Part shown: one piece after another, positions 3,416 to 32,231 of the stretch
How the letters are laid out: each line of letters starts with the position of its first letter
How positions within the stretch are numbered: the first letter of the stretch is position 1
Assembly (NCBI GenBank): GCA_003561535.1
Contig: PWWI01000246.1
Span: 1-32,231 of the forward strand
Direction: 5' to 3'
DNA: 32,231 nt
Origin: Nitriliruptoraceae bacterium
Lineage (GTDB): Bacteria > Actinomycetota > Nitriliruptoria > Nitriliruptorales > Nitriliruptoraceae
Notes under the pieces: model-generated
What the model saw: the letters and a program-made list of their open reading frames with translations, nothing else
Databases searched by the model: none
Told to the model about the DNA's origin: nothing
Program-made: the position numbers and the translations under genes

Positions 3416-4360
3416 ATGACGACAACCGCATGGATCGAACGTCCACCACTGACCGAGCGCCCCGATGCGCAGACCTGGCATCGCAACACGGGTATGGCGA
3501 TCGCGGGTCTCGGCCTCGTGATCGTCGCCGTCGCCGTCGCGGTCAACGTCACGACCGCACCCGCGGTGGGTGGCGGCTCCGATACCGCCGGCACCCTGGC
3601 CGGCACCTTCGCTGCCTCCACCTTCGGTCTGGGGGTCACCAAGATCGGCATCGCGATCATCCTGATCGGGATCATCCTCAGCCTGTGGCGGCGGGTCACC
3701 GCGGTCGGGACCGCACTCCAGAGACTCGCAGCGGGCCGCGAGGCCGGCTCCGACCATCCGGCGACCGGCGAGGTCGACACCCCGTACGGACCCGCGAGTG
3801 CCACCACCCGCCCGCCGGAGCCCCTGTCGATCCACCGGATGGCCGAACGCATGTGGCTCCCCGTCCTGGCGATGGGGGCCATGGCGCTGACCGTCGGCCT
3901 GCTGCTCGGGCTGTGGACCTCGTCCCTGGCGGGTGGGACGGAAGCCTTCCGGGTGGCGTCCGCCTGGAGCCAGGGCACGCTGTTCCTCGGCGAAGGGCTG
4001 CTGCTGAGCGGGATCTCCTTCCTGCTGGGCACGATCCTCTCCTCGCTGCGCCGGGGCGGGGGCGAGGTCCAGCAGGCACTCGGCGTCGACGTGCAGACCC
4101 TGAAGATGCCCGGCACCGCCAAGGCCTTCATCGCCCTTATGGCGCTCGGCATGATGGCGGCCATCGCGCAGTTCGCGCTGTACGGCATCGCCGCATCGGT
4201 CGCAGGTGACCCGGCGAGCTACGCCGTGTGGGTCAGCTGGCTCGGTCCCTTCCGTGAGGTCGCGCTCGGAGTCCTGCTCGCCGGCATCGTCCTGGCCCTG
4301 GCAACGATCGCCAAGGCGCTGGGGTTCCAGTTCCACCGTGTCCGTCAACTCGCCGCCTGA
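3416..4360 (+). CDS. Six-helix membrane protein, family unknown
   Basis: A 314-residue integral membrane protein with about six hydrophobic segments, near residues 25-46, 78-98, 143-168, 184-208, 233-257 and 280-302. The part from about residue 138 onward is clearly related to the next gene: both have an RMxxxMWxP start, an LRRGGG or FRVGGG loop, then VQTLKMP and AK followed by a Met- and Ala-rich helix. ATG 3416 follows GGAGGAGA. I do not recognise a named family. Tandem copies next to a Crp/Fnr regulator and OsmC suggest a stress-related membrane function, but this is only context. Confidence 0.75.
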   Translation: MTTTAWIERPPLTERPDAQTWHRNTGMAIAGLGLVIVAVAVAVNVTTAPAVGGGSDTAGTLAGTFAASTFGLGVTKIGIAIILIGIILSLWRRVTAVGTALQRLAAGREAGSDHPATGEVDTPYGPASATTRPPEPLSIHRMAERMWLPVLAMGAMALTVGLLLGLWTSSLAGGTEAFRVASAWSQGTLFLGEGLLLSGISFLLGTILSSLRRGGGEVQQALGVDVQTLKMPGTAKAFIALMALGMMAAIAQFALYGIAASVAGDPASYAVWVSWLGPFREVALGVLLAGIVLALATIAKALGFQFHRVRQLAA

Positions 4361-4381
4361 AGACACCGGAGAGGTCCGATC

Positions 4382-5071
4382 ATGAGCACCAACACCCCGA
4401 CCAGGAAGACCACGACCAACCGCGTCCCTCGCGCGCCCGAGCCGCGCAGCGACGGTTTCGCCGTCGACGGCTCCGACACGAGCCTCGGGACCAACCTCCC
4501 CCAACGTATGGGTGAGCGCCTGTGGGCACCGATGCTGGTGATGGCACTGATGGCGTTCGCCGCCGCGATGGCCCTCGGCGTCCTGCGCGCCGACGTCGTG
4601 GCCACCACCCCCGACGACGCGGTGCGTCTCGCACAGCTCCAGCACATCACGGCCGGCGTGATGTTCATCGGCTTCACCGCCGTGCTCTCCGCCATCGCCT
4701 TCGCCATCGCCCGCATCCTCGGCGTCTTCCGCGTCGGTGGGGGCCAGCTCCAGCAGTCCACCATCGGCCACGTCCAGACGCTGAAGATGCCGACCAGCGC
4801 CAAGCTGATGATCGCCCTGATGATGATGGGCATGATGGCCATCGTCGCTGCGGTCATCGGCCACTTCGTGGTCGCCGCCCAGACGACGGCCACCGCGGAC
4901 CTGCTGGCCGCCGAGCAGGCGTTCGTGAGCCTCGAAGCGGTCCGCAGGATCGGCGTCTCGCTGCACCTCGTCGCGATCGCCCTCGGGCTGGCCACGATCA
5001 TCGAGGTCCTACGGTTCCAGTCCGTGAGGATCGGCGAGCTCGCGACCACACCTCGCTCCGGCAGCACCTGA
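4382..5071 (+). CDS. Four-helix membrane protein, paralogue of the upstream gene
   Basis: A 229-residue membrane protein with four hydrophobic segments, near residues 46-68, 92-117, 139-163 and 185-205. It matches the C-terminal two thirds of the upstream protein, sharing VQTLKMP, an AK-led Met-rich helix and the final LATIxxxLxFQ helix. It lacks the first two helices and has a hydrophilic N-terminal tail of about 40 residues instead. It starts 21 bases after the stop of the upstream gene and is very probably in the same transcript, which appears to end at the hairpin at 5091-5120. The pair probably arose by duplication. Function unknown. Confidence 0.75.
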   Translation: MSTNTPTRKTTTNRVPRAPEPRSDGFAVDGSDTSLGTNLPQRMGERLWAPMLVMALMAFAAAMALGVLRADVVATTPDDAVRLAQLQHITAGVMFIGFTAVLSAIAFAIARILGVFRVGGGQLQQSTIGHVQTLKMPTSAKLMIALMMMGMMAIVAAVIGHFVVAAQTTATADLLAAEQAFVSLEAVRRIGVSLHLVAIALGLATIIEVLRFQSVRIGELATTPRSGST

Positions 5072-5967: not shown

Positions 5968-6000
5968 TCGTTCCCGAGCTCAACGGCTGCCGACGATGGC

Positions 6001-6006
6001 TACGGT
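6001..6006 (+). promoter_or_regulatory. Candidate -10 element TACGGT upstream of the BTAD regulator
   Basis: TACGGT fits the actinobacterial TAnnnT -10 pattern and lies 92 bases before the ATG of the downstream regulator. The same hexamer occurs in three other gaps of this window in the direction of the downstream gene. No convincing -35 was found. Confidence 0.35.
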
Positions 6007-6097
6007 GGGAGCAGGAACCAGCGATCCGCCCGAGGCCCGGACGACGCCTCTGCGCACTGACGGCGCGTGCAGCCTCGGGCACAGGTGAGGACGAGTG

Positions 6098-7339
6098 ATG
6101 CCGCAGCCGGTGGTGCGGGCTTTCGGGCCACTGCGGCTGGAGGTGGACGGCGACGGCCTGGGTCCAACGGACCTCGGTGGCCGCAAGCCCAAGCTCATCC
6201 TGGAGATCCTGTTGCTGGCCGACGGGCGTCCGGTCTCCCGGGATCGGCTGGCGGATCTGCTGTGGGACGAGGATCGCCCGCGCAACGTGCCCGGAACGAT
6301 CGACACCTACGTCTCCGTCCTGCGGCGCACGTTGGGCCGCCACCGTGACCTGCTCGTGACCGAACGCGAGGCCTACCGGCTGGCACGGTCGGAGCTGCTG
6401 GTCGACCTCGACCGCTTCGACCTCCTGGCCGAACGGGCCGCGACGCGTCCCAACGGGCGGGAGCGGCGTGCCACGCTCGAGGATGCGCTGAGCCTGGCCC
6501 ACGGCGAGGTGCTCGAGGACGAGCCCTACGCCGACTGGCTGCACGAGACCCGGGAGCACTACCGGCGGCGGGTGCTCGACCTCCGCGTGGAGGCTGGGCT
6601 GGCTGCACTGGTGGCGGGTGACGGCACCGCGGCGGTCGCGCACGCCGAGCAGGTGCTGGACGGCGATCGGCTCGAGGAGCGGGCCCACCGGCTCGCGATG
6701 CTGGGCCACCACCTCGGCGGGGTGCGCTCCGGCGCTTTGCGCGCCTACGAGCGCTGCCGCGAGGTGCTCGCCGAGGAGCTCGGAGCCGACCCGAGCCAGG
6801 AGACCGAGGATCTGCACGTCGCCATCCTGCGCGGACGTGCGGCAGCCGAGCTCGTGGCCGCCCACGACGAGGGCGCGGAGCGACCGTCCGCCAGGACATC
6901 CCGTGCCGCGGCCCGACGCGGACGGTCGCTGCACGTCCTGCTGGTCGAGGACACCCCGTCGGATGCGCGCCTGATCCGTGAGGCGCTCGAGTCGGGCACG
7001 GTGCCGATGCACGTCCACCACGTCCCTGATGGGGAGACGGCACTGGACTACGTCCGCGAGGCCGGCACCCGACCGGATCTGGTCCTGCTCGATCTGCACC
7101 TGCCGGGTCGCAGCGGACTCGAGGTCCTCGCTGAGCTGAAGCAGGATCCGTCGCTGCGGCGCCTGCCCGTGGTGATGCTCACCTCCTCGGCCGCACAGCA
7201 GGACGTGGCGAGCAGCTACGACCTGCACGCCAACAGCTACGTCACCAAGCCGACGGACCCTGACGACTTCGGCGATGTGGTCCGCGCCCTGGAGGCGTTC
7301 TGGCCCCTCACGGCGTCGGCGGCGGATCCGGGATCGTGA
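6098..7339 (+). CDS. BTAD (SARP-like) transcriptional regulator fused to a response-regulator receiver domain
   Basis: A 413-residue protein of unusual architecture. Residues about 5-95 are an OmpR-like winged helix (RAFGPLRLEV, GRKPKLILEILLL, PVSRDRLADLLW, TIDTYVSVLRRTLG). Residues about 100-250 are the bacterial transcriptional activation domain (DLDRFDLLAE, YADWLHETREHYRRRVLDL, AYERCREVLAEELGADPS). After an Arg- and Ala-rich linker, residues about 279-400 form a CheY-like receiver of the Rcp1 type (LHVLLVEDTPSDARLIREAL). The likely phosphate acceptor is Asp332 (LVLLDLHLPG), with the conserved Lys in YVTKPTD. SARP-type proteins normally lack a receiver, and receivers usually sit N-terminal to the DNA-binding domain. 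ATG 6098 follows GTGAGGACG. The partner kinase is probably the convergent gene, whose 3' end overlaps by 32 bases. Confidence 0.88.
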   Translation: MPQPVVRAFGPLRLEVDGDGLGPTDLGGRKPKLILEILLLADGRPVSRDRLADLLWDEDRPRNVPGTIDTYVSVLRRTLGRHRDLLVTEREAYRLARSELLVDLDRFDLLAERAATRPNGRERRATLEDALSLAHGEVLEDEPYADWLHETREHYRRRVLDLRVEAGLAALVAGDGTAAVAHAEQVLDGDRLEERAHRLAMLGHHLGGVRSGALRAYERCREVLAEELGADPSQETEDLHVAILRGRAAAELVAAHDEGAERPSARTSRAAARRGRSLHVLLVEDTPSDARLIREALESGTVPMHVHHVPDGETALDYVREAGTRPDLVLLDLHLPGRSGLEVLAELKQDPSLRRLPVVMLTSSAAQQDVASSYDLHANSYVTKPTDPDDFGDVVRALEAFWPLTASAADPGS

Positions 7340-24406: not shown

Positions 24407-25241
24407 GGCAGCGGTGCCCTCCGGGTCGTCGTGCTTCGTCCTTGCATCCTGTCACGGCGCTCACGATGGCGGTTCCCACGACCGCCAGCAGCGCCACCGC
24501 CGCAGGGCCACGACGCTCGGGCCGTAGCCCGCGGAACAGGGTCGCCAGCCGGCCGGCCAGGAGCATCGGTGGGGCGCTGATGGCCAGGTCACGCGCCGCC
24601 CGAGGTCCGGCGAGACGGAGCACGTCGTCCACGTAGCCGAGGGCGGCGAGCACCGGGCCCACCATGCGCCGGCTCTGGCCGCGTCGGGGTACCTCACCGG
24701 AGCCGGCGGCGTCGAGCGCAGCACGCAGAGCCTGCTCGTCGCTCGACCAGATCGAGCGGAACACGATCCTGCCCCCGCGATCGACCAGGTAGGCGGCGTT
24801 GGGCTTCGGGTCGAGCGAGGTGTGGAAGGACCCCTCGAGATCATCGACCGCGACCGTGAGCGGCAGGTCCAGCGTCGCTCGCAACCGGCGGGCCTGCGCC
24901 ACCTTCTCCTCGAAGGTCGCCGCCTGCCCGAAGCGGTCACCCGGGTGCGCCTCGCGGACCTGCACCAGCACGAACCTGACCCGTCCCCCGAACTCTTCGT
25001 GGAGTCGCCGGAGCGGCTCAGCGGCACCGAGGGTCATCGGGCAGGTGCTGGAGCCGAAGACGAACAGGTGCGGCCGATCGAGCGTGTCGTAGGTCAGCGG
25101 TGGGCCGTCCAGCACCCTCAGGTCGAACTCGGGCAACTGGTCACCGGGGCCGGGGCTGGCCGGGTCGAAGCGCAGGTCGGCCAGCAGGTAGCGGGTGCGG
25201 AAGTGGGGGTAGCGGTAGTCGGTGGTCGTGGCTTGGTGCAC
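24276..25241 (-). CDS. Cysteine-type deiodinase-like redoxin with C-terminal membrane anchor
   Basis: A 321-residue protein. A thioredoxin-fold domain spans about residues 30-195. FVFGSSTCPMT holds the active-site Cys67 at the position where deiodinases carry selenocysteine. FVLVQVREAHPGDRFGQAAT, LTVAVDDLEGSFHTSLDPKP and AAYLVDRGGRIVFRSIWSSD follow, each matching the selenoprotein at 30228-30953. A C-terminal region ends in a hydrophobic helix (AAVALLAVVGTAIVSAV) near residues 249-265. GTG 25241 is supported by AGGAGG with 7-base spacing. The last 55 or so residues after TGCKDEARR look unconstrained and overlap the Rieske-ThDP gene in another frame. A frameshift near the end may have removed the natural stop. 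The substrate is unknown; nothing indicates iodothyronines. Confidence 0.85.
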   Translation of the reverse strand: MHQATTTDYRYPHFRTRYLLADLRFDPASPGPGDQLPEFDLRVLDGPPLTYDTLDRPHLFVFGSSTCPMTLGAAEPLRRLHEEFGGRVRFVLVQVREAHPGDRFGQAATFEEKVAQARRLRATLDLPLTVAVDDLEGSFHTSLDPKPNAAYLVDRGGRIVFRSIWSSDEQALRAALDAAGSGEVPRRGQSRRMVGPVLAALGYVDDVLRLAGPRAARDLAISAPPMLLAGRLATLFRGLRPERRGPAAVALLAVVGTAIVSAVTGCKDEARRPGGHRCRGAGHTEPPTIAGESGSAGRARELAQDPRARSAARGPGDHAHR

Positions 25242-29617: not shown

Positions 29618-30142
29618 ATGCTCACCTTCAACCTGCTCGCCGCCCTCGTGGCCGGGCTCGCCGGCACGATCGCGATGACCGCGATGATGCGGGGCGCCAG
29701 CGCGATGGGCGTGACGAACATGCCCTCCATGACCCTGATCCAGGGCACGATGCTCACCGACGACGTCGACCAGGCCAACCGGATCGGCTTCGTCACCCAC
29801 GTGGTGCTCATGGGCTCGATCGTGTTCGGGATCGGGTACGCGGCGATCTTCACCGCCATCGGTAGCGCCAGCGTCGTGACCGGGGCCCTGATCGGACTGG
29901 GCCATGGCATCGTCGCCGGCGTGGCCATGGCGATGATGGGCTCGGTCCACCCGCGGATGACCGCCCCGGCGACCATCACACGGTCGGAGGGTGCCGTGCT
30001 GACCGTCACCGGCAGCGAGACGACCCTGGTGGAGCCCGGCATCTTCGCTCGCAACTACGGCCCCATGACCCCTGTCGGGCTGGTGATGGGCCACGTCGTC
30101 TTCGGTCTGGTCGCCGCGCTCGTCTACGGTGCGCTCGCCTGA
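29618..30142 (+). CDS. Four-helix, methionine-rich membrane protein
   Basis: A 174-residue membrane protein with about four hydrophobic segments, near residues 2-24, 60-82, 85-108 and 148-173. Helix 1 contains GLAGTIAMTAMMRGASAMG and helix 3 contains GHGIVAGVAMAMMGSVHPRM; the many Met residues and the His-Pro after helix 3 stand out. ATG 29618 follows AGCGGAGGAACC, a strong ribosome site. The stop is 85 bases before the deiodinase-like selenoprotein, with no hairpin between, so the three genes may share a transcript. I do not recognise the family; a membrane partner for the selenoproteins is a possibility only. Confidence 0.7.
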   Translation: MLTFNLLAALVAGLAGTIAMTAMMRGASAMGVTNMPSMTLIQGTMLTDDVDQANRIGFVTHVVLMGSIVFGIGYAAIFTAIGSASVVTGALIGLGHGIVAGVAMAMMGSVHPRMTAPATITRSEGAVLTVTGSETTLVEPGIFARNYGPMTPVGLVMGHVVFGLVAALVYGALA

Positions 30143-30227: not shown

Positions 30228-30953
30228 ATGACCACGGACACGGTCGAGTCGTACAACTACGCGACGTTCGACGGCTACGTCGCGACGGGCGCGGACGTCC
30301 ACGAGTTCGCCGCCTGGCCGAACCTGCTGCACGTGGGCGAGCGCGCCCCCGACATCGTCGCCACCAGCCTGGACACCGGCGAACGCCTCGCGCTGTCCTC
30401 GATCTGGAAGCGCCGCAGCGTGGTGGTCGAGTTCGGGTCCTTCACCTGACCCTACTGCTCAGCGGAGGGTCCTCTGCTCGACGCCGCGGCCGACCGCCAC
30501 CCCGAGGTGGCCTTCTACTTCGTGTACACCCGCGAAGCCCATCCCGGCGAGCACGTCGGCCACCACACCTCCTTCGAGGTCAAGCGGGCCAACGCCGCCC
30601 TGCTGCGTGACGAGGTCGGCATCCGCCGCCCGATCCTGCTCGACGACCTGGCCGGCTCGGCCCACCACGCCTACGGGCTGCTGCCGAACATGACCTACGT
30701 GATCGGACGTGGTGGACGGCTCATCTACCGAGCGGACTGGACCTCGGCGGCCAACGTCGAGTCCTTCCTGACCCGTCACGAGGAGCAGCGCCGGCACCGA
30801 CCGGCCCGCGGCGGCCGCTCGCCCTACGTCAGCGAGCAGCTCGAGTACCGCGACCAGGACCGGGAGGCGTTCGACGAGCGGCTCCGGCGCAACGGACCCC
30901 GCAGCTACGACGAGTTCCGACGAGCCGAGGAGATCTGGCGTGAGCGAGGCTGA
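30228..30953 (+). CDS. Deiodinase-like selenoprotein with in-frame TGA (Sec74)
   Basis: A 241-residue protein if the TGA at 30447-30449 is read as selenocysteine (residue 74). Before it the frame encodes HVGERAPDIVATSLDTGERL, then VVEFGSFT. After it come PYCSAEGPLLD, VAFYFVYTREAHPGEHVG, RRPILLDDLAGSAHHAYGLL and TYVIGRGGRLIYRADWTS. This is a thioredoxin fold with the Sec of iodothyronine deiodinases, whose motif is FGSxTU. The 321-residue Cys homologue at 24276-25241 aligns on both sides, with Cys67 at the Sec position. Sec-P-Y-Cys gives a redox pair. A charged tail of about 55 residues follows the fold. ATG 30228 has GCGGAGG upstream. A SECIS-like hairpin lies at 30461-30478, and the next gene overlaps by 14 bases. 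Likely a peroxidase, reductase or dehalogenase; the substrate is unknown. A frameshift reading is excluded because both parts are in the same frame. Confidence 0.93.
30461..30478 (+). promoter_or_regulatory. Bacterial SECIS element of the deiodinase-like gene
   Basis: In the mRNA, 30461-30467 (AGCGGAG) pairs with 30472-30478 (CUCUGCU): 7 bp including one G-U pair. The loop is the tetraloop GGUC at 30468-30471, 19-22 bases after the UGA. As I recall it, the E. coli fdhF SECIS has the same GGUC apical sequence at this distance. SelB binds this loop, and selB is the convergent gene at the window end. Confidence 0.85.
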
Positions 30954-31935
30954 CGAGCACCACACCGAGGACACCGGGGCGGACGCCGCCGAGCAGCCGA
31001 TGACGATGGCGGCGTTCCGCGGGTCGTTCTACTACGGCGAGCACGCCGACCTGCAGTTCAAGTACCTCGCCGAGTTCGATGACACCCGGGCCGCCGACGC
31101 GATCGCCGAGGTGCTCGCGATGGTCGGCGAGGTGGTGGACACCGGTGACCTCGACGCCCTGCGCTCACGGCTGGTCGAGCTGCAGGTCGCCGGCTACGCC
31201 CCGTCCGAGCCGGTGGAGCCGTCGGTCGACGACGCGCCCTTCACCCCGCTCAGCGGTCCGCTGGCCGAGCAGCGCCTCGCGCTCATCACCGCTGGCGGGG
31301 TGTTCGACCGGGACGACGACCCGATGGGGCCGGACGGGCCGACACAGGAGGAGTCGCTGGCGCTGATCAAGGACTTCCTCCGGGGGACCCCGACCCTGTC
31401 GACGATCGCGGTGGATACCCCACCCGAACGTCTCACGGCCCGCCATCCCGGCTACGACGCCCGCACGGCCCAGCGTGATCCGGACACGGTGTTCCCCCTC
31501 ACCCACCTGCGGGCGGCCGCGGCCGAAGGCCGCGTGCAGCTGGCCGACGAGCACTACGCGTTCACCGGGGCGACCTCCCAGCGGCGGCTGGAGCAGCAGG
31601 TGGCGCCGCGCTGGGCGGAGCACATGGCCGCGCGCGAGGTCGACGTGGTGTTCCTCGTCGCCACCTGACCCGTCTGCCACGGGTCGGTCGGACTCGTCGC
31701 ACGCGCGCTGGAAGCCATCGGGATCGCCACGGTGTCGGTGTTCATCCGCGCCTTCGAGCACCGCGCGGTGCAGCTGCAGGTCCCGCGCACGCTGGTCACG
31801 CCCCACCTGATGGGGCGCACGATCGGCCCGGTCGGCGACCGGGCACGCCAGCGCGCGGTGGTCGATGCCGCGCTGGAGCTGCTCGAGGAGGCGACCACGG
31901 GTGCCGCCCTGCGCCGCTTCGCACCTCCCACCTGA
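30940..31935 (+). CDS. GrdB-like selenoprotein (glycine/sarcosine/betaine reductase selenoprotein B family) with in-frame TGA (Sec243)
   Basis: A 331-residue protein if the TGA at 31666-31668 is selenocysteine (residue 243). Upstream are PFTPLSGPLAEQRLALITAG, GVFDRDDDPMG, the conserved DARTAQRDPDTVFPLTHLRA and DVVFLVAT. Downstream come PVCHGSVGLVARALEAIGIA, TVSVFI, VPRTLVTPHLMGRTIGPVGD and a helical end. This is the layout of the GrdB/PrdB-related family, in which Sec near the C-terminus attacks the substrate. Clostridial GrdB works with GrdA and GrdC, and neither is visible here, so this aerobic-type relative probably has another role. GTG 30940 has GAGGAG 7 bases upstream, inside the preceding gene, with a 14-base overlap. 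Sec-P-V-Cys parallels the Sec-P-Y-Cys of its neighbour. Read conventionally, the protein would lose its active site and the last 88 residues. Confidence 0.92.
31679..31697 (+). promoter_or_regulatory. Bacterial SECIS element of the GrdB-like gene
   Basis: 31679-31685 (ACGGGUC) pairs with 31691-31697 (GACUCGU): 7 bp with one G-U pair at the same position as in the other SECIS. The loop is GGUCG (31686-31690), with GGUC 18-21 bases after the UGA. The protein sequences here are unrelated, so the shared RNA shape is not explained by coding similarity. Confidence 0.83.
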
Positions 31936-31964: not shown

Positions 31965-31993
31965 CCGGCGTCGGCGAGGGCGGTCGACGCCGG
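31965..31993. terminator. Stem-loop between the GrdB-like gene and selB
   Basis: CCGGCGTC at 31965-31972 pairs with GACGCCGG at 31986-31993 (8 bp; a G-C pair at 31973/31985 can extend it). It lies between the stops of the two converging genes and could terminate both. No T-tract. Confidence 0.55.
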
Positions 31994-31995
31994 GT

Positions 31996-32231
31996 TCAGC
32001 CGGTCACACGACGGTGGGACGTGCCGTCGAAGGTCGTGCGCCCGGTCGCGCGCAGGTGCTCGAGCAGGGGCACGGCGAAGCGGCGGGTCAGCCCCCAGGC
32101 CTGCCGCGCGTCGGAGGCGGTGAACGGGGCGCCGCCGCCACCGGGGCCGGCATCGAGCACCTCCACGGCCCGCTCGACGGTGTCGGGGGTGAACACCAGG
32201 CCGTCGCGTTGCAGCAGCTGCCCGCCGTCGA
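31996..32231 (-). CDS. selB: Selenocysteine-specific elongation factor SelB, C-terminal end (partial)
   Basis: The last 78 or so residues of a protein entering the window from the right edge, ending with TGA at 31996-31998. LLQRDGLVFTPDTVERAVEV and, after a Gly-rich turn, APFTASDARQAWGLTRRFAV, PLLEHLRATGRTTFDG and RRV match the final winged-helix domain of SelB. That domain is typically PFTxxxFRxxxGxSRKYAxPLLExLDxxGxTxR. It binds the SECIS hairpin and brings Sec-tRNA to the ribosome. The rest of selB, and probably selA, selD and the Sec tRNA, lie outside the window. It converges on the two selenoprotein genes, giving functional support for reading their TGA codons as Sec. Confidence 0.85.
   Translation of the reverse strand, partial: DGGQLLQRDGLVFTPDTVERAVEVLDAGPGGGGAPFTASDARQAWGLTRRFAVPLLEHLRATGRTTFDGTSHRRVTG

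Follow-up and report, generated by a model that had tools for sequence, protein, structure and literature searches.

Several operons are known in which neighbouring selenoprotein genes are thought to serve one redox pathway, among them grdAB, prdB-prdC, frhA-frhD-hdrA, Prx with a SelW-like protein, a Prx-like with an AhpD-like protein, SAO and Tso (PMC13188914). Here we analyse a further candidate, a pair of adjacent genes on a 32,231-nucleotide stretch of DNA (contig PWWI01000246.1, hereafter the window) from an uncultured Nitriliruptoraceae bacterium of the phylum Actinomycetota. The first gene encodes a deiodinase-like protein and the second a protein related to PrdB, the selenocysteine (Sec) subunit of D-proline reductase; each carries one in-frame TGA. 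Judged from the conservation of this codon, hairpins of the selenocysteine insertion sequence (SECIS) type and the Sec machinery found in the genome, both are genuine selenoprotein genes in which UGA is kept as the Sec codon. The pair is like the known operons in its neighbouring selenoprotein genes; unlike them, the combination of a deiodinase-like with a PrdB-like gene is not named in the operon section of the same source (PMC13188914).

Both families have been on selenoprotein lists since at least 2005 (PMC1088965), and deiodinase-like PF00837 and D-proline reductase TIGR04483, both with a UxxC motif (U, Sec), are listed as prokaryotic selenoproteins (PMC13188914, PMC9312934, PMC1088965). 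A Sargasso Sea study reported bacterial deiodinase-like selenoproteins and suggested a redox role for them (PMC1088965). Marine metagenomes are rich in Sec 'PrdB' genes (PMC2398784), the products of which may belong to the same loose family as the PrdB-like protein of the window. The first protein resembles the PF00837 family in passing its cut-off and in its active-site Sec and UxxC, but its subfamily differs from the family in general by a C-terminal helical stretch of ~40 amino acids (aa), by Sec in all 15 loci and by partial pairing with a second selenoprotein. The second protein has its best family match in PrdB (TIGR04483) and shares the UxxC, whereas its score lies under the family cut-off, no PF09338 subunit was found with it and it has a ~90-aa N-terminal extension in class relatives. 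It is also like GrdB of glycine/sarcosine/betaine reductase (PF07355) in passing the Pfam cut-off and in its UxxC, but it falls far short of the GrdB equivalog cut-off, and a GrdE-type subunit was not found.

In the literature searched, which left most subscription papers outside, the pairing of deiodinase-like and PrdB-like genes beside sel genes is not described, and no paper has both Nitriliruptor and selenoprotein. The initial annotation of this DNA had called the pair uncharacterised; as far as searched, this holds for the pairing, which is new, but not for the two families, which are known selenoproteins.

Two adjacent genes, each with an in-frame TGA

The deiodinase-like gene (open reading frame (ORF) 1) occupies positions 30228-30953 of the plus strand, and its coding part (30228-30950) specifies 241 aa with Sec at residue 74 in the motif GSFT-U-PYC (context GSFTUPYCSAEGPLL), encoded by the TGA at 30447-30449. 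The PrdB/GrdB-like gene (ORF 2; 30940-31935, plus strand) specifies 331 aa (coding 30940-31932), including the ~90-aa N-terminal extension, with Sec243 in the motif VAT-U-PVC, encoded by the TGA at 31666-31668; translated with TGA as Sec, its context reads VATUPVCHGSVGLVARAL. The in-frame codons thus begin at 30447 and 31666, exactly where the initial annotation had placed them. Under translation table 11, the ORFs of both genes end at their TGA, so that standard annotation would split both genes, as had been expected.

The two genes overlap by 14 bases (30940-30953, plus strand), and the overlap is identical in the same-genus genome G345. The overlap noted in the initial annotation is therefore real, but in its exact form it is limited to the genus (the window and G345): in loci L095, L096, L098 and L099 it is replaced by gaps of 28, 28, 69 and 0 bases, respectively, measured from stop to inferred start.

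Conservation of the UGA codons and SECIS-type hairpins

A scan of a collection of 84,980 species with a two-sequence profile returned 24 pattern matches, 13 of which were confirmed as deiodinase-like; together with the window and genome G111, these 13 make up 15 loci. The peptide pattern of the scan, YCSAEGPL, fixes those residues, but neither their codons nor the Sec site; a second pattern required cysteine (Cys) codons at the Sec site, and 0 of the 13 confirmed loci have Cys there. Three loci are incomplete: L106 runs into the end of its contig, the central part of L107 is missing (two N in the DNA), and in L105 a TAA precedes the C-terminal part. TGA stands at the homologous codon in 15/15 loci, and codons +7, +8 and +9 after it are GGT, CCT and CTG, again in 15/15. 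Across the six degenerate columns of the stem-loop between +4 and +11, the mean GC content at third codon positions is 0.40 versus 0.87 at the 52 others, and the modal wobble value is 0.86 versus 0.63. This codon bias is what an RNA hairpin of the form AGCAGAG-GGUC-CUCUGCU, present in most loci, would impose. The window carries the hairpin at 30461-30478 (plus strand), with a 7-bp stem (30461-30467 with 30472-30478) and a GGUC loop (30468-30471).

The comparison of PrdB-like genes covered 38 distinct homologous sites after removal of matches that did not span the site and of identical DNA; 34 have TGA and 4 have TGC (Cys). A full stem (+13 to +31) is present in 27 of the 34 TGA genes and in 0 of the 4 Cys genes. 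Among 32 distinct rows, 94.6% of the cells are paired versus 77.6% in shuffles (0/500 as high), and the same hairpin slid along the alignment reaches at most 50.4%. Furthermore, 6 of the 7 stem pairs have changes on both sides (2.7 in shuffles), amounting to 24 cells versus 5.6, counts that are inflated by related rows, and the GU of the loop is invariant. In the window, this hairpin lies at 31679-31697 (plus strand), with a 7-bp stem (31679-31685 with 31691-31697) and a GGUCG loop. Both genes have a hairpin just 3' of the UGA with a G in a small apical loop, the arrangement that defines bacterial SECIS elements (bSECIS), and in both the coding sequence is conserved on either side of the UGA. 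Rfam gave no match at gathering score in the whole window.

Selenocysteine machinery and the sel locus

The window is the entire contig C322 of a draft genome of 3.5 Mb, which is 81% complete and split into 322 contigs. Another contig of this genome, C178, carries the selenocysteine tRNA (tRNA-Sec; 71.7 bits, anticodon TCA), selD (355 bits) and selA (469 bits), all above cut-off, followed by selB, which scores 224.7 bits, slightly under the 242-bit cut-off, in a match to model positions 1-345 of 581, and runs off the contig end; it was called by the model match plus its place behind selA. The last 121 bases of C178 are identical to the first 121 bases of the reverse complement of the window. 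Given this overlap of contig ends, the joined order is tRNA-Sec, selD, selA and selB, which run head-on into the PrdB-like gene and, behind it, the deiodinase-like gene. The convergent neighbour named selB in the initial annotation is indeed selB: positions 31996-32229 (minus strand) encode the last 77 residues of the 640-aa SelB, the N-terminal part being on C178 behind tRNA-Sec, selD and selA. Thus, the genes on which that annotation had staked its reading (selA, selD and tRNA-Sec) are all present, and the pair occurs with selA, selB and selD both in its own genome and in G345, in which a single contig holds selD-selA-selB and, converging with them, the same pair. The PrdB-like gene is placed differently in G194, G301 and probably G298, where it is found at the opposite end of the cluster, upstream of tRNA-Sec and selDAB; for G194 and G298, this placement is deduced from gene fragments at the ends of unjoined contigs.

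A perfect 9-bp inverted repeat with an 11-nt spacer (31965-31993, not assigned to a strand; fold z -3.2) lies between the facing stop codons of selB and the PrdB-like gene and is possibly a shared terminator of the two genes.

The deiodinase-like protein

The product of the first gene passes the PF00837 gathering score (32.4 versus 27 bits), and 18/18 aligned members match this family at E 0.01, in agreement with the initial label; the curated score of the NCBIfam model deiodinase_rel (NF038285) was missed (58.2 versus 250 bits). A structural model with a predicted local distance difference test (pLDDT) score of 88.6 has its best PDB matches in mouse Dio3 (E 1.5e-9) and Dio2, then in ResA and peroxiredoxins. 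The profile comparison with Dio3 (E 2.6e-16) aligns GS-T-Sec/Cys-P and EAHP, Sec being Cys in that crystal. At the level of sequence and predicted fold, these comparisons place the protein in the deiodinase branch of the thioredoxin/peroxiredoxin fold.

In the SCTU motif of deiodinases, the proposed resolving Cys lies two residues before Sec (PMC7506546). The protein of the window has SFTU instead, with phenylalanine (Phe) in place of that Cys, and a Cys77 three residues after Sec (UxxC). The omega-loop insertion that follows EAH and is next to the hormone pocket in deiodinases is also missing (~9 residues compared with Dio3), whereas EAHP is kept. Because both the SCTU Cys and the omega-loop insertion are missing, the protein probably works like a thioredoxin or peroxiredoxin with deiodinase ancestry rather than as a hormone deiodinase.

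In a paralogue encoded in the same window (24411-25238, minus strand), the Sec position is taken by Cys (FGSSTCPMTLG) and the UxxC is lacking, which makes it an in-genome Cys counterpart. A second type of deiodinase-like gene in the phylum, seen in L090 and L091 (G173 and G231), has an in-frame TGA and no Cys at +3 (TUPLTT and TUPITAG). In L105 (Pseudonocardia nigra), the TAA lies in the main copy and a shortened second copy is present (coordinates 3820-4456, minus strand, and 5974-6690, plus strand). Decayed or internally shortened copies occur in four class genomes, G140, G205, G236 and G330 (L081 5665-5908, L082 5275-5547, L083 5983-6075, L085 7747-8046 and L175 5766-6056); these relics may reflect either gene loss or assembly error.

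The PrdB-like protein

The best equivalog match of the second protein is PrdB (TIGR04483), which scores 92.3 bits (cut-off 300 bits) in a match that runs from position 10 to 224 of the 238-position profile, compared with 41 bits for GrdB (cut-off 602 bits). The protein passes the PF07355 (GRDB) gathering score (41.9 versus 22 bits), and 17/18 aligned members match that family at E 0.01. Its earlier label, GrdB-like, is accordingly shifted towards PrdB, whereas that of its neighbour stands. The ~90-aa N-terminal extension is aligned in class relatives. The PF07355 match ends at the residue before Sec, which is the last position of the profile (347), so the family model may be truncated at the UGA.

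PF09338, the pyruvoyl PrdA/GrdE subunit, was found in 1 of 15 carrier genomes (G289), the sole positive of the search; it was found neither in the other 13 carriers and the genome of the window, which at 81% completeness leaves its absence there unproven, nor in any of 14 control genomes. Given the missing PF09338 and the low equivalog scores, we judge it unlikely that the protein is a D-proline or glycine reductase. In its structural model (pLDDT 88.6), Sec243 lies between strand 236-240 and helix 244-259; no PDB fold match was obtained below E 0.03, and no sequence match either.

Weak matches to the UGSC selenoprotein family in 6 of the 18 PrdB-like members of alignment A4 (best E 0.0003) hint at a possible distant kinship of the UGSC and GrdB/PrdB proteins. 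A second, very similar PrdB-like copy in G289 lies at the end of a contig and has lost a long internal stretch in frame (L089 6041-6367 and L088 6753-7706).

Distribution and pairing of the two genes

The PrdB-like protein has matches in 55 of 296 genomes of the phylum at E 0.001; at the same threshold, selA is matched in 53 of these 55 carriers versus 136 of the 241 other genomes. Among the 13 genomes of the deiodinase-like scan, which are titled Nitriliruptoraceae, Euzebyaceae, Acidimicrobiia, Streptosporangiales, Haloechinothrix and Pseudonocardia, selA scores above cut-off in 11 and was not found in G299 and G308. Cultured carriers of the deiodinase-like gene named in the scan include Haloechinothrix halophila YIM 93223 and Pseudonocardia nigra DSM 104088.

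Within the class (66 genomes), 19 genomes match the deiodinase-like protein at E 1e-8. We counted the 10 with a TGA-bearing copy of at least 60% identity and set aside the relics (G140, G205, G236 and G330) and distant matches (G247, G321, G331, G332 and G334). The PrdB-like protein likewise has matches in 19 class genomes, of which 16, at about 45% or more, were counted (G327 by a fragment) and G086, G313 and G322 were set aside. On these counts, 9 genomes have both genes, 1 has the deiodinase-like gene only, 7 the PrdB-like gene only and 49 neither (Fisher p 2.7e-6, uncorrected for kinship). The two genes are adjacent on the same strand in 6 of the 9 class genomes in which this could be judged (G000, G345, G338, G339, G326 and G310); in G344, the contig ends inside the deiodinase-like gene. 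Seven of the class genomes listed are the sources of loci L095-L100 and L106, and the pair itself was seen in draft genomes only.

Of the seven genomes outside the class whose deiodinase-like gene was read, five have no PrdB-like gene. G306 has a PrdB-like relative that is 33% identical and located elsewhere in the genome, and G111 one that is 37% identical, has TGA and lies 3.4 kb downstream on the same strand. In the plasmid collection, no record has the pair; one weak deiodinase-like match (30%) and 22 records of the PrdB/GrdB family below 60% identity were obtained.

Redox genes and other neighbours

Of the 44 regions searched, six encode a flavin adenine dinucleotide (FAD)-dependent disulfide reductase (Pyr_redox_2) at a distance of 0.3-6.1 kb from one of the pair genes or its relic: L086 and, at 62-80% identity to the L086 protein, the genome of the window, L081, L085, L098 and L105. 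In the genome of the window, it lies 6.1 kb away, beyond the sel genes, at positions 8434-9837 of contig C178. The best NCBIfam scores of the L086 reductase are those of lipoamide dehydrogenase (327 bits) and MerA (283 bits), both under cut-off. No reductase as similar was seen in a set of 14 regions, mostly around selA loci. AhpD-like proteins are encoded near the deiodinase-like gene in L102, L105 and L107; in Pseudonocardia nigra (L105), the deiodinase-like, AhpD-like and FAD reductase genes follow one another on one strand, and in L107 an OsmC-like gene lies downstream of the deiodinase-like gene. On account of these reductase, AhpD-like and OsmC-like neighbours, we infer a thiol/peroxide relay.

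A membrane-protein gene weakly similar to DUF6789 (29618-30142, plus strand) ends 85 bases upstream of the pair, and a 52% relative lies downstream of the PrdB-like gene in G289. In the same-genus genome G344, only ~137 bases separate an acyltransferase gene from the deiodinase-like gene, leaving no room for the DUF6789-like gene at that place, and it was therefore dropped as an operon partner.

Proposed function of the pair

We consider it somewhat better than an even bet that the two genes form a probably co-transcribed selenoprotein pair within the Sec-insertion locus, a predicted operon that would use selenium for thiol-redox chemistry or for reducing peroxides or electrophiles, with a flavoprotein disulfide reductase feeding it. 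The deiodinase-like protein would be a soluble Sec-dependent thiol oxidoreductase or peroxidase, in which the Sec74 selenolate would attack an electrophile; a peroxide is the most likely target, ahead of an oxidised thiol or a carbon-halogen bond. Cys77 of the UxxC would resolve the oxidised selenium as a selenenylsulfide, to be re-reduced by a relay from the FAD disulfide reductase linked to reduced nicotinamide adenine dinucleotide (phosphate) (NAD(P)H), in some relatives with an AhpD-like protein. In the PrdB-like protein, which has an alpha/beta fold, Sec lies between a beta strand and the helix after it, and the Cys at +3 is likely the resolving one; this protein would perform a second selenol/thiol step on a small molecule. 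Because the genes overlap and share the Sec supply, co-production of both proteins is likely the selected feature, and their physical cooperation is possible. The initial annotation had taken the shared U-P-x-C as a sign of joint work; this is not borne out, since BLASTP gives no homology between the proteins outside the motif (E=0.05 over 15 residues) and UxxC is common among selenoproteins in published lists (PMC13188914, PMC9312934, PMC1088965). Its dedicated two-protein pathway fits the co-occurrence in 9 of 10 class carriers and the adjacency in 6 of 9, but each gene is also found alone, which leaves the pathway as possible only.

Several observations weigh against the operon proposed here. 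The folding energies of both hairpins are unremarkable relative to shuffles (z -1.5 and -1.3) and not significant alone, and therefore the case for the hairpins rests on codon constraint and covariation. The score of the deiodinase-like protein for the AhpC/TSA peroxiredoxin family (PF00578) is under the gathering cut-off (22.8 versus 26 bits). Of the 44 regions searched, 38 showed no such flavoprotein, and none was seen in the 14 kb around the G345 pair; it may be a common actinobacterial type, and its link to the pair may be an inherited neighbourhood. AhpD-like and OsmC-like genes near the deiodinase-like gene were seen outside the class only, with the AhpD-like gene on the opposite strand in L102 and L107. 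In 3 of the 9 class genomes judged, the two genes are not neighbours (G327, G325 and G315; in G327, at a contig end, the genes are ~1.2 kb apart with a DsbA-like gene between them), and each gene also stands alone. Finally, the substrate and the electron donor of the proposed operon are guesses.

Alternative explanations

If the two TGA codons were ordinary stops, the genes would be pseudogenes or products of sequencing or assembly error, which a fragmented draft genome and the relics of the deiodinase-like gene in other genomes might suggest. However, the same TGA in 15/15 and 34/38 homologous sites, the constraint on both sides of it, the covariation of the SECIS-type hairpin and the Sec genes in the genome refute this explanation, which we regard as extremely improbable. 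A less probable reading than the operon, and one that we still take seriously, is that the two are independent selenoproteins that share a promoter and the Sec locus, Sec genes travelling with their machinery, with no common substrate or electron path. It accords with the 5 of 7 deiodinase-like carriers outside the class that have no PrdB-like gene, with the 7 of 16 class PrdB-like carriers that have no intact deiodinase-like gene and with the occurrence of the first gene in only G000 and G111 among the 55 PrdB-like carriers of the phylum (weaker matches and relics uncounted), as well as with the PrdB-like gene standing beside sel genes even without an adjacent deiodinase-like gene (G194 and G301). 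It accords less well with the adjacent same-strand order in 6 genomes, the 14-base overlap common to both readable members of the genus and the presence of the PrdB-like gene in 9 of 10 class deiodinase-like carriers, a statistical association uncorrected for kinship, nor would it predict the Sec-containing PrdB relative downstream of the deiodinase-like gene in G111.

The homology of the first protein to deiodinases could instead point to reductive dehalogenation or cleavage, the deiodinase-like protein removing a halogen by selenolate attack and the PrdB/GrdB-like protein handling a related substrate; the GrdB/GrdE relatives farB/farE have been proposed to cleave the C-F bond of monofluoroacetate (PMC10838667). 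The features of deiodinase chemistry and substrate binding are missing, however (Phe for the SCTU Cys, no omega-loop insertion), and 14 of 15 carrier genomes, that of the window among them, yielded no pyruvoyl GrdE/PrdA partner, so we hold this explanation to be quite improbable. Only a little less doubtful is a more specific form of the proposed operon, a dedicated two-selenoprotein relay in which the deiodinase-like protein would act as the front-line reductase of peroxides or halogenated electrophiles, the PrdB-like protein would be its specific partner, having evolved away from amino-acid reduction after losing the pyruvoyl subunit, and a lipoamide dehydrogenase/MerA-type reductase would be the point of NAD(P)H entry.

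Implications

To our knowledge, the selenoproteins of Actinomycetota are little studied. The locus extends the short list of selenoprotein operons by a conserved pair that is linked to the Sec-insertion genes themselves, and provides codon-level and covariation evidence for actinobacterial SECIS hairpins. It also exemplifies two neighbouring genes that standard annotation would split. The two products are well-bounded test proteins for the roles of deiodinase-like proteins in bacteria and of PrdB-like proteins that lack a pyruvoyl partner, and a natural Cys paralogue of the first is encoded in the same window. That the two genes stand directly beside each other and beside the selenium-insertion genes hints that they share a redox task.

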